From Trebouxia sp. TZW2008 (Eukaryota > Chlorophyta > Trebouxiophyceae > Trebouxiales > Trebouxiaceae): DNA of 64,000 nt. A program made the translations under genes and the position numbers. The notes beneath the pieces are model-generated. The model saw only the letters and a list, made by a program, of their open reading frames with translations, made no database searches and had not been told where the DNA came from. The stretch spans positions 248,001-312,000 of the forward strand of contig BDIU01000062.1 of assembly GCA_002118135.1 (NCBI GenBank), in the 5' to 3' direction. Numbering within the stretch: position 1 is the first letter of the stretch; every line of letters starts with the position of its first letter. Shown piece after piece: positions 3,001-63,799 of this stretch.

Positions 3001-6000
3001 GCCTGAAGGGGTACAGCAAGGAGGGATGCTGTCTAACTTTGGGCAGGCGTTGTTGGGCAGGTTGACTGGCAGGCGAAAAAATCAAAAGCCTACAGCTGCG
3101 TCAGGTATGTGACTGACTGCATACATGCAGTTGTATGACTTTGTTGCAATGTTTTGCTTTGCGCTCAAAGATAGGTTGGGCGGTGCTTGTGATGTCCTAC
3201 TATCAAGTGTGGTCATGGCAATCATATAGATCAGTACCTTTTTTCTGTGGAGCTGCTTGACTGAGGAACCTTGCGATTGCTGCTGTGGGTTCTTGATATT
3301 CATGGTGTGGCCTGCATTCCTGCTCTTTCTTGCCGTTGCTGCAGCTTTTGACCCTGCAACTGACAGCTGCCTGCCACCCCAATTCAGCATTGCGCGCCGG
3401 CTGTGGCTTGAGCCTCCTGACCTCTCACCTCTCACATGCAACACATGGTGTCTTGCAAAAGTTGCTGATGAATGTTTTTTGTGTTGACACAGACACAGCT
3501 GAGTCAGACCAAGATGCTGACGCAAGCATGTCAGATGCGCCTCAAGACCAGGCAGTTCAAGACGAGCAAGCCCAAGAGGTGGGCATGCCATCAGAAGCTG
3601 CTATGACAGCTGCCAGCAGCCAAGATCAACCAGAAGGTGGTGCTAGGGGCAAGGGCAGGGCCGGAGGCAAGGGCAGGGCAATTTCTAGCAGGCTTGCTGC
3701 AAGCACAGCTCCAACTACATCAGCTGCACAGGGTGAGTGACCTTTGACTTGGCCTGTAGTTGTCATGCCGCATGAAAGCGACATACAGTGAATGGTTTTT
3801 GTCACGACTGCTTTGGTCCCCGAGAAAATTGTCTTTGTATCAAATTGTCCTCACAAAGAAGTGCCACTGCAGAATGCAGTGTCTGGTTACGAATTGCATT
3901 GTCCTTGCATTGAGGATGTCCTCACATCAAGTGTCCTTACAACGAGAAGTTGGTGTACACGGGTTGTTATAAGGACTGATGTGCGATACCCTGCCAGCAA
4001 TGCTGTCAGCACTGCCCCAGGTGCTACAGCAGCGCTAGGTGAACATGAAGTCTTCACCTGCCATGAGCGGCATGTCAACTGCCTGTGTGCAGCCTTGGCA
4101 AGGGCTGAAGAAGCTACTTGTTGTGATAGCCACAGTAAAGCTGACACAAAGGGGCCATGCCATGACTTGCAACATGCCTTTAATCTTTATGAATTGATGC
4201 AGGGGCTCTTGGCAGGACTGTGTTGTGTGCTGCAAGTGCAACAGACATCCTACAGCATTTATGACGACAGGAAAACGATTTGCTTTGGACACTGCAAATG
4301 TGTCTCACTGAAATGCCTTGTTTTGTGCATGCACAGATGCTGAGGCAGATGCTGAGGCAGATGCTAGTGGCAATTCTCAAGCCAAGCAGGTCACTGCACA
4401 GCCCGCCCCAGCCCGCAGGAGGGGCCGCCCCAGTAAGGCCCAGCAGGCAGCGACAGCTGCAGCTGCTGCCTCAGCCCCCAAGTCTCCTTCAGCAGCAGCT
4501 GCTGCATCAGTCACACAGTCACCTCCTGCAGCCTTGGTGGACACTAACCAGCTGCATGGGACAGCCCCAGAGCCTGCAGGGCCCAGGCAGGAGGCAGGTC
4601 TGGGCGAGGCCTCAGATGCAGAGCAGAATGAGGCGCCAAAGAGGAGGAGCAGGCGGACCACCAGTGCTGCAACTGCCTCAAAGCAGGTCAGTCTGTCAGG
4701 CGACCAAGCATCTAGCTTGCTGAGATTGATACGGCATCATGTATGGCACTTTGAAGTGTTTGCTGTTATGCACAGCAGCAGTGCAGGCGATGTTCTATCT
4801 GCACACCCCACCTCTTGTCTACCTAATGACTCTCAATAGGCAAATGTGCCAGTCATCACTTCCCATCAAGCTCAAAGATTGCACCACCACCTGCAACTGC
4901 GATCCGGATGCGTCTTGTATTGACTGTGTCCAGCTGGACCTGGCAACCTTTCTGATATGCCACATGTTGCTGCTGACTGCTCACATATCGCTGCTTGGTT
5001 CTGACCATGTTTGTGGCCAGCAAGATCAACTTGAATTATCCATACTCTCATTGCTTATCTGTTCAAATGCACCACAATCCAGAGACTCGCCGTTCCAAGC
5101 AAGCATGTGGTAGAATGTGGTGAGCTGATCATCACATTGCAGGAGCCGCAGACCACAACACTAAGCTTGCTCAGGGCATATTGCTGAATTCTGCGGTAAT
5201 GTAACTCTGAGTACGTGGAGTTACAGATATGCTGAGCTGATTGTTGTGTTGCAGGAGCCAGCAGGCAGCAAAGCTAAGGTTGCTCAGGGCAATGCTGAGC
5301 CTGGCCCCAGTAGGGGCACTAGAGTCACCAGAGCTCAAGCATCCAGGAGCAGAGCCTCTATTGCTGCAGCTGATGTAAGTGACATTCAACTGTTGTCAGT
5401 TGCAAATACAGTGACTTCTTTTTGTAAAGACTGCTTTGGTTCCCAAGAGCATTGTCCTTATTTCAAGCTGCCCCTACTCAGAAGTGTTGCTGCAGTTAGA
5501 ATGTAGTGCTTGTTTACCAATTGCGCTGTCCTTACAGAATGTCCTTGCATTGAATGTCCTCACAAAGAGAACTTACTGTATGTTGTCATCAGGCAAAGAC
5601 CTTTGTGCATGACTTGTTGAGAAGCCTGAGTGACTGCCAATCAGCATCGCATAGGCAGTTGGCTGCCAGCATTTACAGACTTTGACTATGGACAAGGTTA
5701 GCTACACTGGCTGGTTGCTGCAAGATCGTCTGCAACAACTGAGTAAAGCTGGCATGCAACAAATGTCTGAAGCTAACTTGTGCAGGGTGCTTGTCATGTC
5801 TCCAGCATGACTCAATATGATTACCACACTGCATGCTTGATATATTTTCTATTTTGGACTACACAGTGATGGCTTGCTTGTGAATACAGGTGCAAGACAC
5901 TGCTGCAACTTCATCAGGAGCCCCAGCCAGTGGCAGGGGCGGCAGGAAGCGCAAAGCGACTGCCCCTGCCCTTGAGACAATCTCAGAGGTACAGATTGTG

Positions 6001-6913: not shown

Positions 6914-9900
6914 ATGAGGCCGCCTGCGATCAGGTCAACGTTGCCATACAACAGCCCCCGAAATTTGCTACCGTTCGGCGCCGCTGCTCCAGTCTTACAT
7001 AGACTAGCTACTCACAAAAAGCAGAAGCGGCAATTGAACCAGCCACCTTCATCAGCCAGCCGCGTCTTTCTGAGAGACCTCTTGTGCAGTGCATCTAGCA
7101 AGACACCGGCTGACCTTATAGTCACTCCTAACTTGGAGGCTGACGGTGGCAGCCGCCCGTCAGGTGAGGCCGCGAGAGAATGCGGAAGATTCAGCATCTA
7201 TCAGGTGTCACACTTTTGCCATCTGCAAAGTGTGTTGCTGCAGGATGGAGGATCAGCTTGTTTCAACAAGCTCTAGCCCTAGGGCTCAGTGTCATCGTGT
7301 CACTGTCTCCAGCCTTCTGTGCAGTCCAGGCTGCTGTAGCTCAGCAGCCTGCAGCTGTATCTATAGTGACGCAGTGAGTGGCTGCTGTTGCACATGCAGC
7401 TCAAGCGCTTCCTTCAGCACAAAGTCTGCAAATTCAGCTCCCTACCTCTGATCAGGACCCAGAACTATGCTCTGTTGCTGCAGGCATGTTCACAACCCCA
7501 AAGCAGAGGTATCAGCACAGCTGGAGGAATCGCTGATGCAAGCTCTCCGGCAAATCGAAGCTACCATAGACTCAGTTGTTACTGTGCTCTCAAACAGCAT
7601 CCCAGGCTTTGTGTCTGCTAGCAGCGCTACTGATCCAGAGGTACCAGAACAACGAGCAAATAATCTCATGTCATTGACAAACATGGCAGTTGTGTTGCAA
7701 GCACTCAAGGAACATTCAAGCAGACATATGCTCATGTCTTGCATCAGCCACCAACTTATCTCAATGTGACTCAATATGACGAGATGGTCATTGGCGGTCT
7801 GTGAAGTCACATATGGCTGCTATTCTACCATGTGAGTGCCATTATTTGATCAATTCACTGGTTCTGCTTGAAGTTCTAATGAGTGCTTGTTTGCCGCAGC
7901 GCGATGCTGATGCACTCAGGGCGGCAAACCTTGTGGAGGAGGTTTATGAGCTTGTGGCTGAAAACTACCTAGATGCCCGCAGCGCTGGCTTTGAACTGAC
8001 AAGGTTAGTTGCTCTGCTATGGCAGCTCATTCCAGTCAGTACAACGTTAACAGTGGCAGATGGATCACAGCTTCTGGATGTCAACAGACTCAATCTTTTG
8101 ATGGTCAACAGCTACACACAGCCAGAAAGCTGATATGGGCTGGAACATGTGTATGCGCCTAGCAGGGCTGTGGATTTGTTTTGCCAGCAAGTATGTCAAT
8201 GTCGCTGGTGATGAACATGCCTACCACCGTGATGCTCAAAACAAGCTGTCCTGGCAAAACAGGACTTAGGCCACATACACCTAGCAACTGTGCTTGAATG
8301 CGGAACGCATTGCCTCAATCATCATGCCTACCCAGATCTCTGTTGTGCAGATGGGAACAGCTGAGGGATGCTGAGCTGCAGCAGCCTCTGAGAGACAGTT
8401 CAGCAGCTTACAGAGCCATAGATAGTAACAGCCGTCATAATGACAACAGTCATCACAATTACAATGACGACCATACGATATATCATGACAACAATCGTCT
8501 ATACAATCTCTGGTGTGCAGATGGGAACAGTTGAGAGATCAAGCCTTGCAGCAGCCTCTCAGGGATAGCTCAGCAGCATACAGAGCTATCAGAGAGATGC
8601 TGGCCAAGGGCACTTCAGACCCATACACCCGCTTTATCACTCCAGAAGAGTTTGACTCCATGCGCAAATACGATGTGACAGGGGTCGGACTACATCTGGG
8701 CACCTCAGAGGAGTTTGTGAGAAAGACAGGGCTGCAATTACCGCCTGGCCATGATGAAAGCGAGGTTTGCTCTCTGACCTTGCACAATACAGCTTGCATT
8801 TCATGCATTGTTTGTTGCAGCCTCCCTACATGACTATGAGGCTGCAACAACAATTCCACGACTTCTAGTCATTCAGTCCCTCAATGCATCGTCCAGTCGA
8901 CCTATCAGTTCTGTGCTCGCTCACTCACTTGATCATTCATTCCCTGCCTCCATTCATTCATCCCATGTGTCTTGTAATGTGCAGGAGGGCATTTGGGTGG
9001 TCGGTATGATCTTGGGCTCCCCTGCCCAAACAGCTGGGGTGGAGCAGGGGGATCAGTTGTTGCAAATAGACAATGTGCAAGTCAATGGTCAGAGCCCCTT
9101 CCAAGCTGCATCCGCCATCAGCGGCGGTGATGCTGAACCTGATGTCATACCAGAGCCCATAGTTCATCTGCAGGTAATGCTGCAACAGATATACTACAGT
9201 AACTTCTCTTTATAACGACTGCATTGGGTACCAGGAAAATTGTCCTTACATTGAATTGCTCTTACTCAGAAATACCACTACAGTCAAAATGCAGTGATTG
9301 GTTCCCAAATGCATTGTCCCTACAACGAGAATGTCCTTATATCGAGTGTCCTTATAAAGAGAAAACACTGTACTTGGCAACACCCAGCAGGCCTGCCCTG
9401 TGCTGTGCTGTGCTGCGCTGTGCTGTGCTGTGCTTTGACCTGTGCTGATGGTGATGACCAAAGCGACTCTGATGTGACAGCAGAGCCCATGGGTCAGGTG
9501 CTGCAAATCATCACAGTACTACTGGCAACTATACAATCCATAGTGAAAGTGGATCACATGTTCCAGCCAAGGTGCCAGGTGTGTAAGGCACAATTTTTAT
9601 CTGGAACAAAGTAAACAAGCTGTCATCACCAAGCAAGGCAAAAGTTGCCTGGTCATGGGATGCTGATGGATAGGCTGCATTGAGATATCCAGTAGCATGG
9701 CATGTGTGCTTCAGTCCTTGAGCCTCATGGCCAAATACATTGCATGCAGGATAAGCAAAAATATGTCAGCTGCTGTGTCATCTCAACTTGCCGTTTTGCA
9801 GCTTCCTTCAAGTCGAACTGAACATGGACAGCAGTCTGTTCCTCATGCATTGTGCAGTGGCAGGCATGTTTACGCTGATGCTGTTGCAGGTCAGGAAACG

Positions 9901-11640
9901 CAATGGATCAGAAAAAGAGCTGGATGTAAATAGGCCTGTCAAGAAAATCATGTCACCAGTCGAAGCGTATCTTGATGACCGAGGGGCAAGAAAGGTGGGC
10001 ACTGGCCTACCTGTAAACAAAAGTTGTGTCTTGCATCTTGCATGTGAACAGCAGGTGCTTCTTGTCTGCTCTGCATTGCAACCCTTGGCACTCAAAAAGT
10101 TACACAATATGCACAGCTACAAGCCAAATAATGCAATGATGAGATGTCCATGCATCTGGATACTTTAACCCCATGCTATGCATGTCAGTCTTATCAACAT
10201 TGCAATTGTGCATATGTGTCTCAGGCTCAGGGCAAACCCAGAGACACTTGGCAGACGACTGTGCATGAGGACCTGACTTCCCTCCATTCTCAATTGAAAT
10301 GCTTTAGGATAGCACAGGACCAAAGTGGTTGGAGGCAGGGATGGCACCTAGCTGGGCCTGCTGAGCTTGTTTAGTACATGTTTAGAATGGATGAGAATGA
10401 ATGCATTGTGTATGCATGAGCAGCTCAATTTGATGTTCAGCACTCTCTCAGGGGTTTTGCCTTATTGCAGGTTGGGGTGATCAGACTGTCAGGCTTCAAT
10501 GCCCGTGCCCAGCAAGACGTTGCGCAAGCAGTCAAGGCTCTCACGCGACAGGGTGCATCTGAGTTCACCCTAGATGTGAGAGACAACCGTGGCGGGCTGT
10601 ATCAAGAAGGAGCTGAAGTCGCTAAGCTTTTCCTTGAGGGTAAGACACCCTTGAGATGCCTGAAATCTGTATGCCGACAATCACACACTGCTTGTCACAC
10701 TTGATGCTTTGCGGGAGCATGTGCTTTGCAAAGAGGCGATATTGTAAACATGGAATGAATCTGGAGTGCTTGATGGGAGCTGACTGATCAATATGTCTTT
10801 TGAAATGGTCAAAAAGGCATGCTGGTGGCAGTTGTGGCATGTCTGCAGATTGGCATAGTCTATGCATTGACTGTCAATGGCGGATTGAGAACAGCAGTAC
10901 AAGCCTGTTCAGTGTAAGTTTTGCCAGGACATCACATGTCCTTACTGTGATGCTCAACTCAAGCTGCCCTGGCAAAACAGGACCTGGGCCAATTTGCCAT
11001 TACTGCTGTTTGTGTGAGTTCAGATGGCGCCACGGTTGTTGTGACTGAGGGCCGAGGGCATGTTCGGAACAAGCCCCTTACAGCACGGGGACCGGCCCTC
11101 ACTAGGGCACCGCTCACAGTGCTCATCAACCAGCAGTCAGCCAGTGCCAGTGAGATCTTTGCTGGGGCTGTGCGTGACAACTGCAGAGCCGTTCTTGTGG
11201 GCAAAAGGTACAGCGTGGTGCCTGCCAATGACACAGTCCTGTCCATAGTGAACAGTTGGGCAACAAGGTACAACGTCGTATCATGTAAACGCATGTACAT
11301 GTCTTTGGCTCAGGAAGGTGTGAAGTCACCAAGCCAGTCCAGAGTACAGGTGGTTGCTTACAATTGGAATGCAGTGGTTGCAAAAGCACTCCTTGCCTTG
11401 TACATGTTGGCTGAAGATGGTGCTATGCTTTGCAGGACCTTTGGCAAAGGCCTCATCCAAAGTGTGTATGAGCTGTCTGATGGCTCTGGCATGGTCATCA
11501 CCAATGGGAAGTACCTGACTCCTGCACTGACAGATATCGACAGAGAGGGCATTGCACCAGATTTCAAACAGCAGCCGTCACCAGAAGCTGCTGCTAGCAG
11601 ACTGAATGCATGTGTCGTGCCAGAAAAGGTGTCTGTGTGA
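6914..11640 (+). CDS. ctpA: C-terminal processing peptidase, chloroplast-lumen CtpA type (S41 family)
   Basis: Ten exons: 6914-7163, 7244-7373, 7484-7640, 7900-8003, 8521-8764, 8985-9173, 9890-9994, 10471-10639, 11024-11207, 11436-11640; 578 aa. Residues 1-83 (MRPPAIRSTLPYNSP...) look like a stromal transit peptide. Exon 2 encodes a hydrophobic stretch ending near an Ala-x-Ala site, as in thylakoid-lumen signals. The family body follows: NYLDARSAGFELTRWEQLRD, a PDZ domain (about 270-358, AGVEQGDQLLQIDNVQVNG), FTLDVRDNRGG (about 430) and NQQSASASEIFAGAV with catalytic Ser490. TFGKG supplies Lys515, giving the 25-residue Ser-Lys spacing of plant and algal D1 processing proteases. In this family the enzyme trims the C-terminus of the photosystem II D1 precursor, so that role is likely but inferred. 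Start: first ATG in frame with the transit peptide. Confidence 0.93.
8229..8273 (+). repeat. Intronic repeat shared with 10949-10990
   Basis: The segment GTGATGCTCAAAACAAGCTG and the following CCTGGCAAAACAGGAC block recur at 10949-10990, in another CtpA intron just upstream of exon 9. Origin unknown. Confidence 0.7.
8346..8430 (+). repeat. Partial tandem copy of CtpA exon 5 with its acceptor
   Basis: 8348-8425 repeats the acceptor and first about 70 bases of the exon at 8521. It encodes WEQLRDAELQQPLRDSSAAY, against WEQLRDQALQQPLRDSSAAY in the real exon. The copy then diverges, and no GT donor follows where the similarity stops. It lies about 170 bp upstream of the real exon. Confidence 0.88.
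9195..9372 (+). mobile_element. MITE copy 3
   Basis: A well-preserved copy: TACAGTAACTTCTCTTTATA at the left, GTCCTTATAAAGAG...CACTGTA at the right. It lies in the CtpA intron after exon 6, starting 21 nt beyond the donor at 9174. Confidence 0.88.
10304..10413 (+). mobile_element. SINE-like repeat, copy 1
   Basis: Family consensus: TTAGGATAGCACAAGACCAA, then a short variable part, then CCTAGCTGGGCCTGCTGAGC, ending in GAAT-rich sequence. This copy is in the CtpA intron between exons 7 and 8 and ends GATGAGAATGAATG. A 3' microsatellite tail is typical of LINE-mobilised short retroposons; the class assignment is inference. Confidence 0.65.
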
Positions 11641-12452: not shown

Positions 12453-14237
12453 TCACTGTGAGGCATGCATCCAGGCAAACATCGGCATGATGCTTGCTGC
12501 TGGAGCTGCATGTGGTGCACGAGCCAATGCTATGCTGGACTGTGCTCTGTCATATGCTGCTGCTACTTGCTCATCAAAGTTGCCCAGAGCAAAGAAGTTT
12601 GCACCACTCTTTGGAGACCGGCACACTGTGATCTTCTTCTCACCTGCAACACGCCATTGTGTCATCTGACGCGCAAATTGCTGAAAGCTTCTGCAAATCT
12701 GCTCTCAGTCAATAGCAACTGTCCTGCCAAGTTGCGCAATCATCGTATCATGTTTACAAGCCGTGCACAATGTAGCTGCTTTGGTGCTGACAGCCAGTCT
12801 GACTAAATGCTCACCTGTTGCTTCAACATCATCAGCACCACTCATTTGCGAGCTGCGGTCAACCAAGTGGATGAGGGCATGAGGGGGCTGCTTGGCCCAT
12901 GGCAAAGGACCCACATTCTGTCGCCTTTCCTCCCTCCAAGCTTTCAGTGCAGTGCGGTCTACCTTGCCTCCATCAATGTGAGGTCCAGCTGAAGCGCCTG
13001 CAAGCCAATATTGCGGTAAGCAACGAGGTCTGTATACATGTGGCACAGGTAGAGACCTTGGGCAAATGCACAAAGGCATTGTTGCTGATCATTGCAACTC
13101 CATGCATGCAACAGATTGCTGTGTAGCAAACAGGAATGACCATCAAAGTCTTGTGTAGCAAGCGTAATGTTCATCATTGAGTAGCTCTTAAAGTGTCCAA
13201 GTGCTGCGTTGGGCTTTGACAGTGACCTAGGACTGCACGAAGGCACTGCTGCCAGTCAGGGATTCCAACACAATGAACGCGACAACATGCTGTCTAGCAG
13301 ATGTAAGCTTGGTTGGATAGCAGCATGTGAATGCCTGCGTGCTGCCTTGTGCTGTGGCAATATTTTCACCTGGTATGTCTACAGCTGCAAATATCATGGG
13401 GATTGCAGCTGAAGCAGCCACAGCCTCAGGCAAAGGACCACTTCTGACCAGTGTATGCTTGCCAGTCTTGTCAACAACACCAACAGCAAGGGGCACAGGC
13501 AACTCCTCAAAGGTTGCTGGTAGTAGCTGACGAAGGCGGTCAACAACAGGGTCAAGGGTCAGCACTCCTCCTTTCCATGGCTGCATGTTTGGGCGCAAAA
13601 GCTGGATTGGAGGGACACGTGCTAGTTCTGTGGCTACCTGCAACGCAAGTTCTTGCTGATCCATTTGTTGAAGCGTGTTTGTAACATCTGCAGCTTGTTG
13701 ATACATACCTGTTCTGCTGAATATCCTGCTGCATACAGGCTGCCTGAGATAGCTCCACTTGAGGTACCAACAATGCTTGCCACCGGCACCTTTGCCTGCA
13801 CAAGCAGACCAAGTCTGATTTGTTGACATGCTGACCATGCCAGCAAAACGAGCATAGATTGTCGATCTTGCCTCCTCAACGGCCTTCAGGAAACCAGAGT
13901 GCGAAGCGAAGGCAAGGAAACCGCTGGAGAGCACTAGATCGTACTTTGGTCCTGCAAGAATAGGCGCGAACCGCGTGATGAGATCAGGCACCATTGCAGT
14001 CAGCAGTTTCTGAGAGCAAGCAGACACTGAATTGTAGACGACACGCGTACCTCTCGCGATATTCTGGATCAGGTCCTGCACACCAGCGACAATATCCGCG
14101 AAGGGATGCTGGCCTCTCCGCCGAGGCACAACTCTGGCAGGCTTAGGCACAGGCAGAGATGCGACAGGGCTCCAAGGGAACTGACGCTTCTGGTTTGGTG
14201 ACACCAAAGCGCTGGGACCAGCTATTGGGCTGCCCAT
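12453..14237 (-). CDS. Patatin-like phospholipase domain protein
   Basis: Six exons (minus): 14237-14051, 13951-13872, 13795-13709, 13637-13370, 12997-12815, 12643-12453; 331 aa. The catalytic dyad of patatin lipases is present: Ser101 in GTSSG (exon 3) and Asp216 in DGG (exon 5). AAIPMIFAAVDIPG is the usual strand before the Asp. The oxyanion-hole segment is unusual: instead of a Gly-rich LSGGGxxG it reads LSSGFLAFASHSGFLKAVEE. The intron after 13872 uses a GC donor (GAG|GCAAGA). The N-terminal about 60 residues are Pro/Arg-rich and could be a plastid transit peptide. Family enzymes hydrolyse acyl lipids; the substrate here is unknown. It shares a short divergent promoter with the ARC6-like gene. 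Confidence 0.9.
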
Positions 14238-20600: not shown

Positions 20601-22109
20601 TGCTCTTTACGCATCTGATGGTAGGCATGCTAGAAGCCGCCTTGATGACTGAGTCATCATGGATTCTGGGTTGTGATTGGCTGCTTCTGACTGCTGTACG
20701 CAGCCTTTTTTGCTGCTTGCACATATTGATCAACAACTGGTCAGTTTATGCAAGCTTCAAGCTCTTACTTCAGCAGCCACTAAGTCAGCGTCATGTACAC
20801 TAGCTGCATCTGTTCCTGCTGTATGCCAGCACAAAGAGGTTCAAAAAGGCAAACAGGACAGTGCTGCATTGCCTGTTCAGGCAGGACTGCTGGGCCTGAG
20901 AGCTTTTCAGCAACACAGGGCTGGTTTGTCAATGGCGTCTGTTGCCCAGCCCTTGCAAGCTGTCTCCAAAGCAGTGCAGCAGGTAAATGGCGCAACATGG
21001 GCACAGACTTCACCCTGTGCACTGCAGAACAGCTGTCAAAGCAAGACCCAGATTGCGCAGCTTACGCATGCTTTCAAATCAGCAGCAAGCTGAATGCACT
21101 AAGCACATCTGCTAGCTTGATTGTGGTCTTTGGAACAGCATGCAGAGCTCATGTGATGCATTTGCTCATTTGGCCTGTGTGATGAGACTGTTGTCATACA
21201 ACACTCACCTCTTTGAAGTCATGCTATGCTTGACAGCATCTCACAATGGCATGCATGCATGCAGCTGCTTCAGATGATTTGCTGATATGACCTCTGGATC
21301 ATGCTTGCTGATTTGCACTCCCATGGCAGTGGCTGTAGCATGACATTCTGTAATGATGCAGGAGTCTCATGCTCTGACAGAGTCATCAGCGCGACAGTTG
21401 CTGTTGCAATGGCAAGGCGCCAAATCAGCTGCTCTAGGTACTGCCATGCAAGTTTGTCATGTTCACGCAATGCCTGCTGCTTTTTTGAACAAAGGCAATA
21501 ACATGTGGTACTTTTGGCTGGCAGTCAATGCACATGACTGCAGTGATGCTGCAGATATGGCCACACGATGCATTGGATGCAGGCACTCATCACGAGATAG
21601 ACAAGTTGGCAACTGTGTTGAATAGTAAGCTGCTTGCATCGTGGCAGGCTCAGGCAGATGACGTCAAGTCAGAAAACAAGTAAGCAATGATGCAAGGTGC
21701 CACCGTTCCTGCTTACTGTCTTCCTAAGCTTGATATAGGGACATGCACAAGAATGATTTCAACTACTGCTGTGCAGGCATTGGGAATACGACTTGCAGCA
21801 ACTGAACATTCTGAATGTAGAAGCAGATGATGATGCCACTAACTGCACTATTCTTGCAGCCATCAAGGTACAAATTTCTAGCGCATTTTCTCACAAGCTA
21901 ACTTGCGAGCTGAAGCAGCATGTCTGTCGCAGAGTTACTCGGCACATGGCAAGAAAGAGCTCAACTATATGCGGATGTTGCAGGAAGATGCAAGTCTGTT
22001 TGAGGATTCAGAGCTTTTGCATATCTACAAAGGAACATATACTGCAGAGTATGAGGCTGAAAGAACGAGACAAGGTTGGCGCTTAAAGAGCAGCACTATC
22101 ACTCTATAG
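14698..22109 (+). CDS. ARC6: ARC6/Ftn2-type chloroplast division protein
   Basis: Thirteen exons: 14698-14913, 14982-15464, 15791-15967, 16526-16706, 17163-17290, 17881-18039, 19115-19505, 20248-20513, 20881-20982, 21362-21437, 21583-21679, 21777-21867, 21933-22109; 847 aa. Order matches ARC6: a putative transit peptide, the J-like region (SIAFDGYNLLQ, then PPNAGYSQEALYSR), helical repeats (VALQQLALALED; ALAYLTVGYTQRRPQMV; LPGFRDAPANSGTLTDWFND), one membrane span made across the exon 8/9 junction (LKFVVGGAVLL + AGLLGLRAF), and the C-terminal IMS/DUF4101 domain (QLLLQWQGAKSAALG, HWEYDLQQLNIL, GWRLKSSTITL). ARC6 spans the inner envelope and anchors the FtsZ ring; that role is inferred from the family. 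Exon 7 holds a run of seven-residue AERQPVx repeats. A close relative such as PARC6/CDP1 is the alternative. Confidence 0.9.
15612..15790 (+). repeat. Tandem duplication of an intron 3' end in the ARC6-like gene
   Basis: Two about 85-bp units, each ending CTACATGCAG or TTGCATGCAG and sharing 'cttgcagcacaa', 'agtgcagcctga' and 'gagatac', precede exon 3. Each carries a usable-looking acceptor. Confidence 0.7.
17744..17816 (+). repeat. Decayed tandem copy of ARC6 exon 6 start with acceptor
   Basis: ATTCTGCAGGAGGCATGC and the next about 55 bases nearly match 17872-17945. In the real frame the copy has CAG changed to TAG at the position equivalent to GCGCAGCGCTGG, so it is dead. It lies about 135 bp upstream of the real exon. 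Confidence 0.9.
18285..19110 (+). repeat. Array of decayed copies of ARC6 exon 7 start
   Basis: At least five degenerate units of roughly 95-230 bp fill the intron before exon 7. Shared blocks are ACTGCTTGCCGTCTGTGCTC (the polypyrimidine tract plus acceptor) and CAGGCGCTTGCACCTT (the exon's RRLHL codons). Acceptor blocks lie near 18392, 18624, 18720, 18857, 18950 and the real one at 19086-19114. Confidence 0.88.
19800..20240 (+). repeat. Two decayed copies of ARC6 exon 8 start
   Basis: CTGCAGAAGCC followed by the codons for (A/L)(M/V)VTGT(A/E)LA(T/A)KQQ occur at about 19849 and 20031, ahead of the real exon at 20248. Spacing is about 180 and 215 bp. Each copy runs about 60 bases into exon-like sequence before diverging. 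Confidence 0.9.
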
Positions 22110-27470: not shown

Positions 27471-27471
27471 C

Positions 27472-28526: not shown

Positions 28527-28527
28527 C

Positions 28528-40900: not shown

Positions 40901-43900
40901 CGCCCCAGCTGTGGCCTTCTTCCTGCTGATGACCCTCGTAATGGCGTTCTGATAGGCCTGCACATCACCTTCACCATCACCATCACCAGCACCATCAGCA
41001 GCATCATCAGCATCATTGTTGTTTATATGCGGTTCGCTGAGTTCACCATCACCGGCATCATTGTTTACATGCATTTCACTGAGTTTCTGTGACCAAGCTG
41101 CATGCATACAGCAGCAATGCACTGCACGCTAGGTGTGATGCTTCCATGTCTGAGCATGCACTAACGCCATTCTGCCACTGCCACTGGTGAGCTCTCAACA
41201 AACATTGCCTATCTGAGGTATGAAGCAATTCCATCACATGCGGTTTCCACATGCAACTTGTACGCTGTTCTGCATGAGGTCCAAGAGACTAAGGTTGAGC
41301 AACTGTTTTCAGTCCATCACCTGGTTGCGCTTGTGGTCAGCCAGCACAAGGCCAGCATATGCAATTGTGCTGTCTGCCTTGTCTGCTTTGCATGTTAGTG
41401 GGTTCCAAAAAGGATCTGGCAGACTTGCATGGAGGCAGCTAACTGCGCCTGCACATAGCTAGTCGCTGGATGCCAAAGCCTGCGCTTGTAACAAGTGCAT
41501 GAATGAATGAATGCAGCTGTTCTCATGTTTTCACCTGGCTCCACTTGCGGTCAGCCACCGGAACACAAGCTTGAACAACTAGTGTCAGCCTATCGTCTGG
41601 TTAGAAATGCGGTCGGCCATCAAAAGACAAGCTTGAACAAAGGTTTGCAGTGATCACCTGGTTGCGTTTGTGGTCAGCCAGCATGGCTAGGTGCAAAGCA
41701 GGGAAGCTAGCGTCTGGCTTAGCCAGGTGAAGGTACTCTGCCCTTTCCACATCAAAGCGCATGCTCACTGTGTTGTGGCTAGCCATCAAAGGCATCACTG
41801 CACCTGCTTTGACTGCCATCTCTCCAGCTAGGTACTGCAAGGCTGGGCCCATGTTACTCATGCCTGCATTCAGGAATGTCATGCACCTATACTTTGCGTG
41901 CTGCCAATCTCGATACGCAGTAGTTACAGTTTCCACCTCAAAATGCATGCGCACTGTGGTGCTTAGCCTCTAGGGGCATCATTGTAGCAGCTTTGACTGA
42001 GATCTCCCCTGCTAGGTAATGCAAGGCCGGCCCCACGCTACTCATGCCTGCAATGAGAAACATCATATGGTCAATGCTTTGCATGCTGCCAATCTTGATA
42101 CGCAGCAGTTACCGTTTTCACCTCAAAATACATGCGCACTGTGTAGTGGCTAGCCTCTATAGGCATCACTGTATCAGGTTCCACTGAGTTCTCTCCTGCT
42201 AGGTACTGCAAGACCAGCCCCATGCTACTCATGCCTGCAACGAGAAACATCATATGGTCAATGCTTTGCATGCTTGCAACATTGAAACGCACAGGTACTT
42301 GGTCTTGGAGTGCATGCGCACGTTGCTAGCCACTAAGGGCATCACTGTAGCAGCTTTGATTGAGATCTCTCCTGCTAGATACTGCATGGCCGGCTCCACG
42401 CTACTCATCCCTGCATGGATGCCATGGGGTCTATGCTGAGTGGTCTGGTCTAATTAGTACATATCTGCTGCTAGATACTGCAATGTTGTCCCTGGGCTCA
42501 TTTCTGCGCTGAGAAATGTAACATGATCTGTGCTTTCTACTTTGCTGGTTTCTATTGAGATTGATCTTGCTAGGAGCCCCAATGCTGCCTCCTCAACCCT
42601 GCAGTAAGGAATGTCCTGCGGTCTGTACTTTGCACACAGCCAGCACACATGGTCATCAGCATTCACTGCATCAACTCTGGCCAGTGTATCTGACTACACA
42701 CTTTCTCAATTGCCTCACCAATGTGGATGCAGGAGCAAGCAGTGTGCTACAGCAGCCAGCCGAGTGCCTCACCTGATCTGATGCCAGCAGGCCCAGTGGA
42801 AATCAGAATGTCCTGTGTCAGCCGTAGCTCATACCAGAACACAACAGCATTGAGTTTGCCATCCCTGCAAGCCAGAAAAAGCAAGCTTGAGCTGCACATG
42901 ATGTCAGAAAATAACAGCATTGAGTCTGGCATACATGGACAAACGGACAGGCGGACAGACAGACAGACAGACAGACAGGTCACTGAGTGACTTTTCCTCA
43001 CATCATCACGTCATGTGGGTGAGCAGCTGCATACAGTACCTGTTAAATGCGACATCCAGGGTCTTTCTGTCGCTCTCCTCCGGAGGACTGAGCATGTCAA
43101 AATGCCACACTTCCATGGGCTCTGACAATGCAGTGAACATGTTTGCTGCCAAGGGTACACCTGCATTCACAGCAGCCATTTATTGCAAATGCAAGACGAC
43201 TCCTTATGCATATAAGGTGGCGAAAAGAAGTGCTGTGTGCGCAAAGGTGCCTAAAACCCATAGATGCATTCATGCATATAAGCCGGTCTTGAATAGTCAT
43301 TGCCACAGTGTGGCACATGTGATCAGCCTTGTTGCCTGGCTAAAGCATGTGAAATTACTATATGCACAGAGTATAATTGGCAGACCTGCTTTGTGCGCAA
43401 AAGTGCCTACACCCCATAGATGCCCATTGAGGTGGTCATGCATACAAAGTGGTTGTGCATGCAGGATGGTCATATGCACAGAGGACGATTGCCAGACCTG
43501 CTGTATGTAGTGGGATGCCTACAGCCCATTGATGTTCATGCATTAGGTGGTCACGCATATAAGGTGGTCTCGCATGCAGGGCGATCATATGCACAGAGTA
43601 TAATTGGCAGACCTACTGTATGCACAAAGGCGCCTACACCCCATAGATGTTCATGCATTAGGTGGTCATGCATACAAAGTGTTTGTGCATGCAGGATGGT
43701 CATATGCACAGAGGACAATGAGCACACCTGCTGCATGCACCAAGGTGCCCACAGCCAATAGATGCATATGCATCAGGTGATCATGCATACAAGGTGATCA
43801 GAGGGAGAGAGAAGGAGAGAGACTTTTACATGCTCTAGCCAGCCAACAAGGCTGATTGTATGTACCACATAGTGGCAACGGCAACATATCTTCTCATTCC

Positions 43901-46900
43901 TGAGGTTCAGGCAGTGTATAATATAGTGAGGCGCCCTCAACACAGCATGTTCCGCAAAGATCATGCATGCAACATTGTTATGTGTACAAGATGGTCACGC
44001 ATATGAGATGGTCATACATCTCAGGGTGGTGGGCCAACCTGCTGTATGTGTTGGATGCCAGCGGCACCTGTTGACACCGCTCATGTCAAAGCCGCACACC
44101 TCACTAGTGCGCACCTCTGCAGCCTGCAAAACAGATATAGCGATGCAGTTGCAATGCGCATCCAGGCAATGTAATCATTTGCAGCAAGCTTTCCAGCGAT
44201 ATGCAGCAAAAGGCCCTCTGCTTCAGCAAATTTGGCTGCCCAAGCTTTCATACTGTGCATCAACTAGATACAAATTAAAAAGGTCAAAAAAGTGAATAAA
44301 CTAAATAAAATTTGTGCAGCCCAAGTTCCTTGCAAACAGATTGTTGTTGCTGGAAAACCTTGCCTGAGCACAAGATGCAGTCCTGTCAGTCATGACCTGC
44401 TGCTCAAACTGCTGACCATGCATGATGCTGCATTTGTTGGGCAAATACTCAAAATGTATTGCAGCATGGTATGCAGGCATGTGCATGACTGATGACATGG
44501 GTGGAGCCAATTGGAAAACTACATTGCCAGTGGAAAGCATGATGTGCTGCACTGCACTTGAGCACTAGTTTCAGTGACATGGGTCAAATGCGGTTGCAGC
44601 GAGCAACACGATGCAAAGATGAGAAAGGCACCTGAGCAAAGACAGTTGCTGAGGCTGGGATGATGCGTGTATCTGTGGTCAGCAGGTTGTCCAAGCAGTG
44701 CCGCACAGCAGGCATCATCCCAGAAGCCAGCAAGCCTGCAGAAAGCACAAAAAAATATTACAAAGCTCAAGACTTGAATGTCAGGAACTGTCTCAAGAGG
44801 CCAGCCAAGCCTGCAAAAGCAAACATGGCACGTGACAACAATATTACAAATGGCGGGAATTGATGCAAACAAAGCGAGAACCAGCAGCACAATCTTTGGC
44901 CTGGACCTACCTTCATCATCCATCATGTCACACAGCAGCAGATTACACAGGATGAGTACATCTTCGGTGAATTGTGACAGGACAGGCAGGAGGGGGTGTT
45001 CATTGAGGGCTTGAGGGGGGTCAGGCTTACCCTCATCCATCATATCACTAAGCAGCACTTTACATAGGATGGGCACATCTTTGGTGAGTCAGAATCAAGA
45101 CAGGGCAAGGAGGGGGGGGGGGCATCGCCATGTTGGGGGGTGAGGGGTTCCAGGCTTACCCTCATCCATGATGTCACACAGCAGCAGGTTACACAGGCTG
45201 GGCACATCTTTGGTGAGTCACAATGGGCAGGGGTTGTGGGGGAAATGGGGGTTCTGGGCGGTGGGAGGTTGGGGCATCAGGCTTACCCTCATCTATCATG
45301 TCACACAGCAGCAGGTTACAAAGGATGGGCACATCCTTGCGCAAGCTGAGATCTGTGGGCCGCTTGTACACAACTGCGAACTTGTCCTCCTTGAAACCAT
45401 TGGTAACCAGAGCCTCTTTGCAAGCCAAGGATAAGTACAGCCATCTATCCACACCTGTCACATGGTACGCTCCAGCATCTAAAGCCACCATTGCATGAAG
45501 TCCTACAAAACAGCAGCAAGTCAATGGTTTGCATGCAGAAGAAGAGTCTGCTAGTACCCAAGTCTGATTATGCTCCTTGAAACGGTGGGTAATCAAAAAT
45601 TCCTTGCAAGCCAAGAGTAATCACAGCCATCTATCCACAGCTGTCACATGGTGCATGGTGCAAAGCCACCATTGCATGAGGTCCTACAAAACAGCAGCAG
45701 GTCAAAGGTTTGCATGCAGAAGAAGAAGGATCGGCCAGCAATCAAGGCTAGTTATGCTCCTGGATACGGTTGCTAATCAGGGCCTCCTTGCAAGCCAAGG
45801 ATATGTACAGCCATCTATCAGCTGCTGTCACATAGTAAGCTCCAGTATCTCAAGCCACCATGCCATGAAGGCCTGCAAGACAACAGCATCAAAGGATTGA
45901 AGTTTCATTCTGTTGATCCGTGTCTCAATACAGAATTGGCATGCAATAATTTTACATCCTAGCTGTTCAATACCACAAAGTTATGGCTGCGTTTAGCCAA
46001 GATTGGTCTGAGCTGTGCTGTGCTGTGCTGACTGCCTTGCTGCTGCTGGTCAAGGTTAGTCAGCATGTACACATTAGGAACTTGAGCGACAGGTTGATGT
46101 GTGATCACAACAAAAAGAACTTGCCTTCTGTTTGACACAGACAATTTGACGTGCTAAGACTTGCCAAGCACGCGCGCAAAGTCACATGTCATAGAGGATT
46201 CTCACAAAGAAGCATGTTGGAAAGATCTGGCCTACTGCTCAATTGTTTGTAGCCATGCACAATTGCATGCATTAGATGCGAAAGGTGTTACCTGCGCCTG
46301 CAGCCAAGTCTAGCACTCTGCAGTCCTTGTCTTCAGCTGCAATAGCTTTCACACTATGCTGAATGACCGCCTTGCCAAACTACAGTAAGGGCGCCAAATG
46401 CACAGAGCAACAAACAGATGCAGGTCACAAAAGCAAAGAGTCTTACCTGCGCCTGCAGCCAAGTCTAGCACCCTGCAGTCCTTGTCTTCAGCTACAATAG
46501 CTTTCACACTCTGCTGTATAGCTGCCTGCCATGCTGTTTGACGTACTGTGTCTTCCACAACTCCAATCTGCCGCTTCGGCATGGCGATGTCTGTTTGGAC
46601 TGTGACATAATTGTAGGTGTCTCTCACATGGTGATCACTCTCTGCCTGCATATTAGGTGAGCATTATGTCATGAGCGGCACAGACGATGACATTTCTCTC
46701 TGTTTTCACCAGGTACAGTATGATTCATTGCTCAAAGGCTGGTGATACATAACATATAATATAATAACATGCTTGCTTTCTTAGCATAATGCTTTTGGGG
46801 TGTTTCACTTTTGTTATAGCCTGCGTGAACCTGACGCACACATGGTCATTGCCACTGTGTGGCACATTGCGATCAGCCTTGTTGGCTGGCTAAAGCATGT

Positions 46901-49900
46901 CAAGTCGTGATTCTTTGACATCTCACATTTATTTATGGCATGGGCTGATTGACAGCAAACCTGGCCTGCAACGGAGTTTTATGAAATCACTCTGACATTG
47001 CAGGAATGACTCACCTGTTGAGTCCGTGCGACAGTGAGTATGCACCAGAAGCAACAGCTTGCAGCAGCAGCAGTGGCATCAGCTCAACTTGTGAATGTGC
47101 TGGTCTGGTACCATACTCAAGTGCTTGAGATCTGCCAACGAGCCATGCTTTGTTACAATGGCTTTTCCTTGGGCTTTTGCTGCTGTCTCTAAATGATGGC
47201 ATGATGATGCATCACACAGCATGATGTAGATCAGTACAGAATGACACATACCAGAGCGCTCAACAGCACAAAACATTGCAATGCACATACACAGCTCAAC
47301 ATGACTTGCCGCTGTGAGGCTGTCAAAGTACAGTTTGCAAGTTCAGCTGCAGCAACAGAGTCAACACAAGCCTGTTTGGCGAGACAGGACATGTGCCACA
47401 CACAATTAGCAATGTATGCCAGAAAGTGCAATTTATGACAAGGATCAGTGTTAGCTGAGTCATTGTGCAGAATGGCAAACACGTGCCAACTGCATCTGTG
47501 GAGTCTACTTTGTGGTGACTTTCTAAGCTGCCTGTGCTGCACTGGACAAGGTGAAAACAGGTCACCCCGACTGACCACGAGACACAAAACAGGCGCTGTT
47601 CTGCTCAGCTGAGACCTGTGCAGACTTTCATGCGGCAGAGGGGTTGATCTGACAACCCTGACAAGTGTATAGAAAGGTCTCTTGACCCTTTGCATTGAAT
47701 ACAGACAGCTGAGGTCAGCACAAGACCAAACTGGTAAAGAAGATGATGGAGAAAGTTGGTTGCTGTGTCACACACCTAGCTGGGCCTGCTGAGCCTGTCT
47801 GCTATGTATGTATGTGTGTTCATTGAAGGAAATGGAAAGTTCGTTGGCAGCAGTTGGCACAGGCTGAAAAACAGCAATGGGGTGCTTGGCCTACCCAAAA
47901 AGGTGTCAGTAGTCGGGTTGACAGCATGTTGTCCGTTCTGAGTTTGTGCAGTGGTGCTGACCGTGGGTGGCAGGTGATATGCTGCGATGGCGCAGACTTC
48001 ATTACAGCAAATGGGTCACTGGCCTACCTGAAAAGGTGTCAGTAGTTGGGTTGGCAGCATGTTGTCTGTCCTGAGTTTGTGCAGCGGTGCTGAAAGCGGG
48101 TGGTAGGTGATACGCTGAGTTGGCTCTGCTGCAGGCAAGGCCAAAACTTCCTTCCCCTTGCCTGCATTGCACACACATGAGCCTCACATTCTGTCTGTGC
48201 ACAGACTTGTGTCAAAATGTGAAGTGTCTCCCCTTGCCTGCATTGTAAGCATGCAAAACTCAGACTGTCTCTGTTCTCAGCTTGTGCAGTGGTGCAGGTT
48301 GTGGGTGGTAGGTGATACACTGGGTTGGCTCTGCTACAGGCAGCCCCAAAACTTTCTTCCCCTTGCCTGCACACATGTGAAGCTCAAACTCTGTCTGTGC
48401 ACAGAGTTGTGTCAGAATTTGAAGTGCTTCCCCTTGCCTGCATTGTAAGCATGCAAAACTCAGACTGTCTCTGTTCTCAGCTTGTGCAGTAGTGCAGGTT
48501 GTGGGTGGTAGGTGATACGCTGAGTTGTCTCTGCTGTACGTAAGGCCAAAAGTTCCTTCCCCTTGACCTTACAGTGAATGCACATCCAGACGCTTGGTGT
48601 AGAAATGCTTTCTGAGTCAGGACAGCCAGTTGAGGACCAATCACTGCATACTGATGACAAACTTGATCTGACTCAAACCGGCACTCAATCCAGGACAATC
48701 TGATGTGAGGATGACCGTGACTGAGCTCAGACCGGCTTTGTTACCTGCGCTGGGACAAGGCATACTGTCATGCAGCGCACTAAACAGCATGCAGTTCTTT
48801 CATGTGGGCTGCATTGTCCTAAACTGCACCGCACGTGAACGGGACAGTGCAGCACACATGCAGTGCAGCATTCACCTGTCAGCAGATCCTTGAGCATGCC
48901 TTTTGAGTTGCTGCTTCAGAGCTTTGCCGCAGGGCTGGGTGAAATGCATCAGGCTTCAAGCCCTCCTGGCAAACATCAGCTGCCAGCCTGTGACTTTCTA
49001 GACGCAACATGCCATGCAAAGCCCACCTGCCAGCAGACCCTTGAGCATGCCTTGAGTTGCTTCTTCAGAGGCTTGCTGCAAGGCTGGAAGACATACAATT
49101 ATCACAAGCAGGGACTATGGCCCCTTCTGCAACACAACACACAACTATGATTCGACTATCACAGTGATGTCAACATGCAGTGCAGTGCATACCTGTCAGC
49201 AGATCTTTGAGCATGCCTTGTGTTGCAGCTTCAGATGCTTGCCGCAGGGCTGGGTGAAATGCATCAAGCTTTAAGCCCTCCTGACAAACGTCAGCTGCCA
49301 GCCTGTAACTTTTCAGGCCCAAGAGTGCCTGAGCCTTGCGCAGAAATGACTTGACATATGGCTCATGCGGTCTTGTACTCCTGTGATCAAGGTAAGGAAA
49401 TATTGTTTCCAGTCTCTTCAATGGCAGCACCAGCAAGCACACAAATGACTTGACATATTGCTTGTGCGGTTTTGTGCTCCTGTGATCAAGGTAGGGAAAT
49501 GTTGTTTTCAGTCTTTTTTATGGTAGCATCAGGAAGCACACAAACGACTTGACATGTTGCTCGTGCGCCTCCACACCCCTGGGGTCAATGACAAAGACAC
49601 TGAAACACAGCATGCTCAGCAGCATAAAGGAGAGTCTAGCACAAACAGCAAGCCATGAGCAATTGCCACTGCTGAGGGATGGTTTGCTGTTCAGCATACT
49701 TTGGCATCAGCACATCGAACTGGTTGGAGACAGTTGATTGCTTCTGTATGTACCTAAATGGCTGTATGTACCTAAATGGGCCTGCTGAGCCTGCCTAGCC
49801 CACGTTTACAATTATTGAATGAATGAATGAATACTTTGGCAGACTTGCTTCACAGGCTGCAATGCAGGCAGCATCGGGCTTGTCGATATAGTTCTTCCAG

Positions 49901-51976: not shown

Positions 51977-54818
51977 TCAAAATGGTGTCCATGGTGGCAA
52001 ACTGTAGTTGGACTGAACAGGGTCTTGCATGGACACTGCAGCCAAACAATTCAGTGTCATTCATTCATTCATTTTCGATCATTCTAGAGGTATGCTAGGC
52101 AGGCTCAGAAAGGAAGGCCCAGCTAGGTATGTACTGGAGCAATCAACTGTCTCCAAGCAGTTTTCCAAACCCTAAATGTCAGCCATTAGTACATCAGCTC
52201 AGAACACATCTCACAGTCTTGTGCACATGAGCTTAGCATTTTCGTTTATATGGCGTTTGCGTCCATGGCCATCAGCTTAACAAATACCACAGGCTCATGC
52301 ATATGAACTTTGCAACTTTGCTTGCGTAGCATTTATTGTAATTTTGTTTGTACGATTATTTTATTCATAAGTGATAATTTATAGATAAATCAAAAAGCTG
52401 TGCTTCACAAAGTGTGAAGTTGGAGCAGAAGCTTAGCGGACTGCAGGGCCAGGTTCCTATGATCATGCACAGAATGTCTGAATGACTGCCGGTGAGATGT
52501 GCAAGCTACCCAATATAAGGCACCGCTTAATGTAACACTTAAAATGGTGCCAGCTGACTGGAAAACAGTCTGTAACTCAACAGAACAAAAGCAAAAAAGC
52601 TCACTACTCATTCTCACTAACTTTGGACCATGTGCCCGCCACATAAAAAACAACAAGAACACCTACAGACTCACCATCGCAAAATTTGGAGTGGCCACCT
52701 TTCACGTCAATCACAGTATCAGCAAAATGCATGGGCTTCAGACTCACCGTCATGGTTTCTGGACTCTGCACTCCCCACTTTATCAACAATAACAACAACA
52801 AAAGCTTCAAAGTCACCTCTACAGAGACTGGAATTTGAACCCTTAACAGACCAAAACAGCACCGACAGCAATCTGCTCTTATCAAAAAAGGGAATCTGTG
52901 TTCAACTGTTGTCGTCAACACCAGTACCCTGTTCTTGGCATCAACGCCACCACCAACAATAGCAACCTTGTACAACAAGACCATTCAGGAGAAACTTGTC
53001 AGACTCACCGTCACGGAGTTTGGAATCTGCGCTCTTCATGTCATCCAGAAGGCTAGCCAAACCAGGGGTTCCAGCAGCAATTGCTGCCTGCTGAGCCAAA
53101 TTGCGCAGGTGGCTAGCGTTGTCAATCTGGCCTTGCTGAAAGGTGGGGTTCGGCCCCTGCAGACCTGAGAGGTATGCATTGAGAGCCTCGGAATTGCCAA
53201 TTGCAGGAGCTGGCTGGCTGTACACATTGACTGGTCCCGCTGAGTAAGGCGAAGACTGACTGAAGCGACTGTATACATCTGGCGTGGGCTGAGTTGAAGG
53301 CTGGCTGTACAGCTTAGACAGCATGGCGTCCAGGTTTTGCTGTGGGCTGTCTGTGGTGGCTGTGTAACCAGCTGGCATGTACTGTACGCTGTAAGGTAAG
53401 GCAGCAGGAGCATCAGGCAGGTACTGTGGTGGCAGCATCTTTTGGGGGCTTATAGGAAGTGAGTCAGGCTTGGGTGCATGTGACAGGTGGGAAGTCACAG
53501 CGCCCTGGGCATTCTCAGCAAGCAGCTGCTGCTGCAGGTGCTCTAGGTGGAGCCAAGTAGCATAGGCAGATGGATTTGCAATCCTGAGGCGGGCCGCCAT
53601 CAATGCGACATCGTTTGCGCCAAAACCAGTGTTGGCAACAAAACCTGCAACTTCTGCCGCAGCAGACTCAAGGCGGGCTGCCTGACTGCTGGCCCCAAAG
53701 CGTGCCTTCTCTAAACTTGCCTCTGAAGACCCAGAGTCAAGGGAGTGACTGTGGGGCTGCTCGTTGTTGCTGTGGCTCACCATGCTGATAGATCTGATTG
53801 CCTGCAGACGAAATTGTCGTCAGCAACACAGAAAAAAAGGGAGTCACTGTGGAGCTGAACACTGTTGCTGTGACTCAACACGCTGACAGATCCAATTGCC
53901 CGCAGTCATCCTCATTGTCAGCAACACAGAAAGAGACGGCATCAGCAACGTGATGAGAGGCAGGCGTGAAAATGGGCATCGCCTATGATCCCAGGGTAAG
54001 CCATTTTGATGGCTGAATGACATGATATGCAATAGGGTCAAGCATCATGGCATGCACAGTGAGTCAAGGATGCAGCTTTGACAAGTGATTATACAAGTAT
54101 GCCAACATATGTAAGCTGCATGCTTCTGAAGCATGCTTGGCTCACCCGTCCGTCAAGGACTCTCTCAGATTGGTCACAGGCCCGCTTAGCATCTATCTGA
54201 CTGTCAAAGGTGACAATGCAGTCCTTGCCCTGCTGTGCAGCGCTGAAAGATATATGTGTAACTAAACCCCATTTAGCAAAATGCTGCTGGACCTGAACTT
54301 CTGAAACACAAGCTGCAAGGCCTTCAACATAGACTTTTGCAGATAGCGCAGTTGGCGTGCTGGCAGCTGGATAATGCGTTGGTGCGTTTGGCTCAAGCTT
54401 GCCAGGCGGACGGGGAGTAGCCCTCTTGACCTGCACAGCATGCCAGGAGAGGCTCAGCGTGTCAGGAAAGGCTCTGCAGGCTGATTCAATTTGTCACACA
54501 ACAAATCCTGCTTGAACCCGCCGCTGATGCTGCAGATAAAAGTAAAAGGGAAAACCTGTGGCTGATGTGGCCCTTACAAGCAAGTTGCAGTATATGAGAT
54601 CTCACCTTCAACTTGACTCCGCTCACCACGGGCTGAGTGTCTAGCAGAGCTTGCGACAGCGCCTGCTCTGAAGTGAACGTAACGAATGCATAGCCCTTGT
54701 TGCGACCCATGCTATGCTTCGGCAGGTAGACGTCCGAAACTGCGCCATATCTTGTGAAGTGCTGTCGAAGCTGGGGTTCGGACAGATCGTAGCCCACATC
54801 AACAAACAGCCGGTGCAT
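51977..54818 (-). CDS. Two-RRM RNA-binding protein (hnRNP/Musashi-like layout)
   Basis: Four exons (minus): 54818-54606, 54430-54146, 53801-53009, 52035-51977; 449 aa. RRM1 (residues 2-71) has RNP2-like RLFVDVG and RNP1-like KGYAFVTF. RRM2 (about 105-166) has AKVYVEGL and a weak RNP1 (KDCIVTFDS). Between them is a short basic Pro-rich linker. The C-terminal about 280 residues are Ser/Pro/Tyr/Gln-rich and probably disordered, ending in a 20-codon terminal exon (SMQDPVQSNYSLPPWTPF, stop). Two N-terminal RRMs with a low-complexity tail suggest an mRNA-binding regulator or splicing factor. Start: first ATG just before RRM1; the same frame is open upstream only from a non-ATG codon. Confidence 0.88.
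52058..52165 (-). mobile_element. SINE-like repeat, copy 5
   Basis: On the minus strand: GATTGCTCCAGTACATACCT, AGCTGGGCC, GAGCCTGCCTAGCATACC, then ATGAATGAATGAATGAC. It lies in the last intron of the RRM gene. Confidence 0.78.
52600..52775 (-). repeat. Decayed copies of RRM exon 3 end with donor
   Basis: GACTCACCGTCATGGTTTCT at 52742 and GACTCACCATCGCAAAATTT at 52669 repeat GACTCACCGTCACGGAGTTT at the real donor (53003-53022). A weaker one lies near 52610. They are downstream of the exon in gene direction. Confidence 0.85.
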
Positions 54819-63766: not shown

Positions 63767-63799
63767 GTAGCACAACTATTCAATTTCTTTTCTATCATT

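Follow-up and report, generated by a model that had tools for sequence, protein, structure and literature searches.

Introns are known to be gained through tandem duplication of gene segments, some of which span an exon-intron border, and the parts of PMC4974935 and PMC3443670 available to us cite for this route the internal gene or tandem genomic duplication of Rogers (1989) and Gao and Lynch (2009), as well as Hellsten (2011). In the potato RdRp gene, a tandem duplication over one intron-exon border, together with branch site, tract and 3' splice site, gave rise to a new spliced intron (PMC4974935, in part). In Chlamydomonas and Volvox, tandem repeats were densest in introns and more numerous close to intron-exon junctions (the available part of PMC3887541), and introners, which are dispersed multicopy introns, are known to alter intron content genome-wide (PMC9860276, likewise in part).

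Here we describe the introns of a 64,000-nucleotide stretch of contig BDIU01000062.1 of the lichen alga Trebouxia sp. TZW2008 (hereafter the window), many of which hold copies of the adjoining exon edge and its splice signal. Copies beside an exon are also the outcome of tandem exon duplication with mutually exclusive exons, in which exon copies adjoin the exon; the Trebouxia copies, however, are one-sided, decayed and partial, each made of one exon edge, part of the exon and some intron, and none was found to be a whole exon with both splice sites and an open frame. As in internal gene duplication (Gao and Lynch; Rogers, as represented in the parts of PMC4974935 and PMC3443670 at hand), local tandem gene segments are involved, some of them border-crossing, whereas new introns arise there from duplicated AGGT or border segments and here existing introns lengthen, the copies are abandoned and no new intron is evident. 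The potato duplication is the closest in structure, but it yielded a spliced intron, while the inner Trebouxia copy appears to be skipped, judging from one transcript-derived protein and two homologs (PMC4974935, in part). Trebouxia introns share with those of Chlamydomonas and Volvox a richness in tandem repeats near junctions, although in that study the repeats were counted by motif (GT/AC dinucleotides being abundant in introns) and its available part does not describe an exon-edge origin (PMC3887541). As to introners, which would appear as near-identical copies in unrelated genes, an 876-bp array and a 74-bp spacer from Trebouxia each had one match in the genome, namely itself.

Within a limited literature collection, no paper was found on exon-edge copies filling Trebouxia introns, nor any genome where recognisable abandoned copies persist at between an eighth and a third of the exon edges; the main texts of two Trebouxia genome papers (PMC11523091 and PMC12712428) lack the word 'tandem', and 'intron' occurs 0 times in the former and once, in the reference list, in the latter. 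The mutation process is known, and what is unusual is the density and persistence of intact decoys. Two open questions are touched by it, namely how introns lengthen without transposons and how the spliceosome chooses among nearly identical splice sites, for which such a genome offers many natural experiments, with duplicated splice sites in one transcript, a known true site and graded decay.

Exons of three genes were checked by spliced alignment: CtpA against P0016, ARC6 against P0001, and TPR-PRMT against P0110 and P0111. The CtpA model (plus strand, 6914-11640) encodes the same protein as P0016 apart from one false 21-residue exon extension, and its exons match P0016 over 578/578 residues; because the contigs that P0016 is listed from do not exceed 3030 bp and the CtpA coding span is 4.7 kb, P0016 must be spliced. 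Hand edits were confined to leaving ARC6 exon 19115-19505 whole though the alignment split it at a coding repeat, removing one zero-length TPR-PRMT exon, and preferring P0111 where it differs from P0110. The closest named relatives of all three models are Trebouxia strains. Pfam searches of the translated strands gave Peptidase_S41, ARC6 and Arm_PDR above the curated cut-off and PDZ, TPR_1 and methyltransferase below it; homologs of TPR-PRMT carry methyltransferase and TPR domains. Whole-genome searches used 68.5 Mb in 527 contigs, and a wider sample combined the window with four 50-kb blocks of other contigs (264 kb in total). Gene-based statistics on the 264 kb (base coverage, edge rotation, cluster placement and the 69 exon/copy pairs) rest on ab initio models. 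Compared with the homology-checked exons, the ab initio gene finder took decoys for exons at 18668-18688, 38711-39307 and 41955-42047, a mistake to which gene predictors are liable; as its window models thus hold false exons made of copies, statements about the window use homology-checked exons where possible.

The copies and arrays of the window are as follows.

5115-5291, plus strand: coiled-coil gene, copy 5115-5178 of exon start 5255 with decoy acceptor 5143 (TGCAG); blastn 77%, exon ab initio only
8336-8589, plus: CtpA, copy 8336-8419 of exon start 8521, decoy acceptor 8351; self-blastn, exon checked with P0016
17737-17941, plus: ARC6, copy 17737-17806 of exon start 17881, decoy acceptor 17746, in-frame TAG; 93% identity, exon and phase checked
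18205-19163, plus: ARC6, tandem array of about 230-bp units, last unit on exon start 19115; TRF, self-blastn, checked exon
19798-20308, plus: ARC6, array with decoy acceptors 19849 and 20034 ahead of exon start 20248; self-blastn
34280-34746, minus: TPR-PRMT, acceptor edge 34347, decoys 34537 and 34714; self-blastn, exons checked against homologs
35327-35630, minus: TPR-PRMT, duplicate across acceptor edge 35361; self-blastn
37905-38597, minus: TPR-PRMT, acceptor edge 37966, copies 38399-38486 and 38522-38597; self-blastn
38696-39788, minus: TPR-PRMT, donor edge 39679 (exon 39679-39844), five exon-end copies; 81-89% identity, exon checked
41282-41683, minus: TPR-PRMT, donor edge 41658, copy 41282-41346; self-blastn
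41741-42416, minus: TPR-PRMT, acceptor edge 41863, 187-bp array; TRF, self-blastn, exons checked against homologs
42905-42932, minus: short copy of acceptor edge 42864; targeted alignment, 24/28
43360-43799, minus: 115-bp tandem array, intron-only, holding the 27-nt copy 43491-43519 of donor edge 44039; TRF, self-blastn, 26/27
44796-44821, minus: short copy of acceptor edge 44735; targeted alignment, 24/25
44916-45339, minus: array at donor edge 45287; TRF, self-blastn
45362-45899, minus: array at acceptor edge 45502, decoys 45684 and 45873; TRF, self-blastn
46281-46531, minus: donor edge 46447, copy 46281-46377; self-blastn, 90%
47855-48124, minus: donor edge 48028, copy 47855-47991; self-blastn, targeted alignment
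48065-48565, minus: acceptor edge 48161, 200-bp array, decoy 48367; TRF, self-blastn
48856-49312, minus: donor edge 49193, copies; self-blastn
49338-49567, minus: acceptor edge 49380, 99-bp array; TRF, self-blastn
52738-52773, minus: short copy of donor edge 53009, exon ab initio; targeted alignment, 30/36

The first-pass annotation of this DNA had named 17 places at which introns would hold exon-edge copies, 15 of which were recovered by blastn, the other two being short copies found by targeted alignment. The edge-derived part at 43.4-43.7 kb is just the 27-nt copy within the intron-only array, that at 52.6-52.8 kb is the 36-nt copy, and blastn copies at 38.1-38.6 kb are confined to 38.40-38.60; the copy at 5145 was counted as edge-derived against an ab initio exon. 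The annotation also held that only the outermost copy matches the protein family, and the spliced alignments of all three checked genes indeed use that copy; its serial duplication across borders is borne out in part, 14/50 edges having at least two decoys, and its ladders of decoy splice sites are real, with AG in 40/43 decoy acceptors and GT in 21/26 decoy donors. The consistent upstream/downstream polarity that it offered as support is no evidence, being a matter of geometry: a copy of an exon start in the preceding intron can only lie upstream.

In the checked genes, a blastn-level copy occurs in the adjacent intron at 19/76 edges (12/38 acceptors and 7/38 donors). A more sensitive census compared 60-nt windows around each edge with the adjacent intron (introns of at least 120 bp only), using foreign edges as control, and found copies at 23/66 edges of the three checked genes (14/33 acceptors, 9/33 donors) vs 0/66 foreign edges, and at 52/434 edges on the four other contigs (27/217 acceptors, 25/217 donors; ab initio exons) vs 1/434 foreign edges. 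Edge copies are far beyond chance. The window is richer in them than the other contigs, whose counts are depressed by wrong ab initio edges. Exon-interior windows were duplicated in 5/42 cases in the checked genes and 12/310 on the other contigs. Altogether 69 exon/copy pairs were collected at the 50 edges, some of them on window exons without support from the homologs (18668, 42048), and their exon parts have a median identity of 84%.

The surrounding DNA is rich in local direct repeats in general. Self-comparison of the window by blastn gave 70 direct vs 2 inverted pairs less than 3 kb apart, and under one fixed threshold with a 1.5-kb limit the window and the four blocks together gave 226 direct vs 21 inverted pairs (direct 68/42/29/23/64 and inverted 1/3/1/2/14 per block, window first), the direct pairs occupying 6-16% of bases. 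Such adjacent direct copies, with units that span exon and intron in 39/69 pairs, are what defines tandem gene-segment duplication. At eight more small loci of 2.7-3.9 kb, direct pairs were present in 3/8 and inverted pairs in 0/8. Contiguous tandem arrays in the window have periods of 99-384 bp (TRF); when the smallest spacing is taken from each of 99 clusters, the median is 127 bp, and in 52/67 border clusters this value falls between 100 and 200 bp. Duplications are patchy from gene to gene. Several gene models reach 25-55% local-duplicate coverage, and a 12.4-kb, 21-exon model at 15913-28346 of the C100 block (L014-L018) is free of local duplicates.

The reading that we prefer, with a probability of roughly three in four, is that the copies are what remains of local tandem duplications, each of about 100-200 bp, that recurred in Trebouxia gene bodies, those crossing a border having been tolerated. 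Such duplication would recur within gene bodies, and a unit straddling an acceptor border would place intron part plus exon part twice in a row, the donor side being the mirror image. Provided that splicing still used the site next to the intact exon, the mRNA would remain unchanged and the event would be tolerated; the intron would gain one unit, the inner copy would decay as a pseudo-exon edge, and repeated rounds would build ladders. Duplications internal to introns would persist too, and should lose similarity faster since neither copy is constrained. The events were presumably effectively neutral, with a cause that probably lies at the DNA level, and the outermost site is probably used in all these genes, as suggested by the spliced-transcript protein of CtpA and by homologous proteins for the two others. 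Several observations count against plain tandem duplication, namely a slight excess of AG in decoys (40/43 vs 250/328), early ends of homology and the paucity of young pairs. In addition, if duplication took no account of gene structure, intergenic DNA should hold duplicates at least as often as genes do. Instead, detectable local duplicates cover 2.9% of called-intergenic bases, compared with 14.7% in introns and 13.5% in exons (264 kb, ab initio); the low intergenic share could come from a link between duplication and transcription, from a faster turnover of intergenic DNA or from errors in the models.

Duplication adds visibly to intron length. Introns with an edge copy in the checked genes have a median of 873 bp (n=16) vs 346.5 bp without (n=22; Mann-Whitney p = 2e-6), and for introns of at least 150 bp in all models the values are 581 (n=77) vs 325 (n=179). 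The first-pass annotation had gone further and taken the duplications for the main route of intron growth; the association with longer introns stands, but duplicates make up just 14.7% of intron bases in the 264 kb and 32% in the three checked genes (where they form 20% of exon bases). A bolder form of the preferred reading, which we regard as possible but doubtful, holds that splicing ignores intact, near-consensus intronic copies and takes the site on the full exon (the farthest acceptor, the nearest donor), so that border duplication acts as a ratchet, and that the duplications date largely from a single past pulse restricted to gene bodies. If true, this intron-growth ratchet would leave dated ladders of natural decoys.

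Another possibility is that duplication is aimed at borders, with splice junctions or transcription (R-loops, an AG/GT motif) causing breaks or template switches and thereby driving most intron growth. With ab initio models, 66/92 clusters in the 264 kb touch a border vs 52.5 +- 4.2 under random placement (0/1000), and intron-only clusters number 16 vs 29.6 expected; similarly, when exon structures were rotated within genes, the distinct edges spanned by local repeats were 93 vs 72.6 +- 7.7 (0/500), and the scarcity of intergenic duplicates and the frequent stop of homology at the splice signal point the same way. However, edge-spanning pairs were 97 vs 87.6 +- 9.1, which is not significant (80/500), the checked genes gave 16/21 clusters at borders vs 12.8 +- 2.0 (P = 0.085), and mid-intron 60-mers were duplicated at a similar rate, in 8/29 cases vs 23/66 edges in the checked genes and in 13/174 vs 52/434 on the other contigs. 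Moreover, with one copy constrained, border copies should be detectable for longer, so that a border excess would be expected even without targeting. There is no clear targeting of borders, the special preference for them implied by the earlier annotation is not upheld, and we consider this mechanism improbable. It had also been assumed that duplications inside exons are purged, an idea that was dropped since exon-only clusters are at random expectation (10/92 vs 9.95 expected) and no purging is visible.

About as improbable, in our view, are old tandem duplicates kept exon-like by gene conversion, or exon pieces inserted by templated repair. These would account for the sharp end of homology seen in 30/69 pairs, which stops less than 15 nt from the splice site, with exon parts about 86% identical and intron flanks that score like unrelated introns; the decoys at 27329 of contig C208 likewise have intron flanks common to each other and unlike the true edge. 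When tandem duplication was simulated at a neutral divergence of 0.12, homology rarely stopped so early (6-8%), and at exon identities of at least 0.88 the observed 11/19 exceeds the simulated 5-12% (ages uniform up to 0.35), whereas in the lower-identity bins 13/36 and 6/14 fall inside or close to the ranges obtained by simulation (14-38% and 31-48%). On the other hand, the remaining 39/69 pairs reach at least 15 nt into the intron, so that their homology covers both sides of the border, and an older neutral simulation (0.16-0.2 substitutions per site, 0.3 indels per substitution) gave early stops in 28-36% of all pairs and in 29-68% of those in the high-identity bin, with a mean exon identity of 0.83-0.85. 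Older, old-skewed neutral duplicates thus roughly reproduce the early end of homology at the splice signal. The same model overpredicts copies ending inside the exon (22-36% vs 7/76 observed), and gene conversion or templated insertion may therefore have contributed.

The age of the copies bears on the same question. Recent conversion should yield near-identical pairs, but 0/226 local pairs in the window and four blocks reach 96% identity, and exon identities of at least 0.94 occur in 2/69 pairs, both at most 32 nt long, where a constant duplication rate predicts 15-20. Shorter copies from targeted alignment do attain that identity (26/27 and 24/25). The scarcity of young pairs gives independent support for old age and fits a past pulse of duplication; for the youngest repeats only, assembly collapse is a possible cause. 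Three further ideas found little support. Copies limited to the exon part and its splice signal had looked like a separate class with a mechanism of its own, but were largely reproduced, in a rough fit, by older neutral duplicates with frequent indels. As for spacers of such copies being dispersed elements, the one 74-bp spacer searched had itself as its sole genome match, while a few flanks touch dispersed repeats; and as for inverted local copies as a source of flanks, there was just one significant best match on the other strand.

It is less probable still that the copies are functional, as alternative or poison exons that regulate expression and hence keep their AG. At the median, decoy acceptors score above about 95% of intronic AG and decoy donors above about 98% of intronic GT, 11/43 acceptors and 11/26 donors score at least as high as their own true site, and AG is retained a little more often than in the exon body (p = 0.01 for the excess given above). 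By codon position (1/2/3), exon and copy differ at rates of 0.166/0.130/0.218 where the intron flanks are long and of 0.120/0.113/0.221 in the remaining pairs. Taken by itself, the higher third-position value could also reflect an earlier constraint on the copies; together with about equal positions 1 and 2, it fits an unconstrained copy paired with an exon whose changes fall mainly at third positions. However, the copies are partial exons whose reading is broken, with 53 frameshifting vs 2 in-frame indels, and a stop or frameshift would follow the use of 41/43 decoy acceptors. Intact decoy acceptors score below true acceptors on average (5.15 vs 7.17, p = 7e-5), and the AG excess is not significant in the less biased subset with longer flanks (22/24, p = 0.13). 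The spliced alignments of CtpA, ARC6 and TPR-PRMT skip the copies, and P0016, the spliced CtpA protein, skips the CtpA decoy acceptor.

Very unlikely, finally, is an origin from introner-like or other mobile elements or from faulty assembly: a dispersed element of about 180 bp is present in several window introns, but the copies are local and specific to their own edge, a genome-wide search (which skips very common words) with the 876-bp ARC6 array or the 74-bp spacer finds only the query itself, and blastn-level copies are about 7-32% diverged in 264 kb without N, so that they are not assembly duplicates, a worry that the first-pass annotation had itself raised.

In exon/copy pairs of the 264 kb, CG dinucleotides were kept in 34/106 copy cases, compared with 56-83% for other dinucleotides, which suggests CpG hypermutation, perhaps by methylation. 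The 180-bp element, with ends TACAGT...ACTGTA, lies at 3783-3964, 5403-5580, 9192-9377, 28259-28503 and 36073-36255; a genome search gave 1042 candidate places, of which 40 were scored, all of these being matches, the window's own copy included. We take it to resemble a Tc1/mariner-type MITE. A second dispersed element of about 110 bp occurs on both strands (10279-10406, 23785-23849, 49714-49836, 52056-52163, 59449-59589 and 63778-63897) and also on contigs C273 and C208. A third repeat (43293-43354, 43824-43878 and 46842-46903; 97% identity over 65 bp with contig C32) forms an inverted pair that flanks the 43.4-43.8 kb array. In-frame 21-bp repeats are found in the ARC6 coding sequence (19273-19393), with fewer copies in the homolog of Trebouxia C0004, and a 15-bp repeat of 14 copies encodes an in-frame pentapeptide repeat within an ab initio exon (36743-36955). 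A minus-strand gene at 12453-14237 has an ab initio protein that, by motif, presumably resembles a patatin-type lipase.
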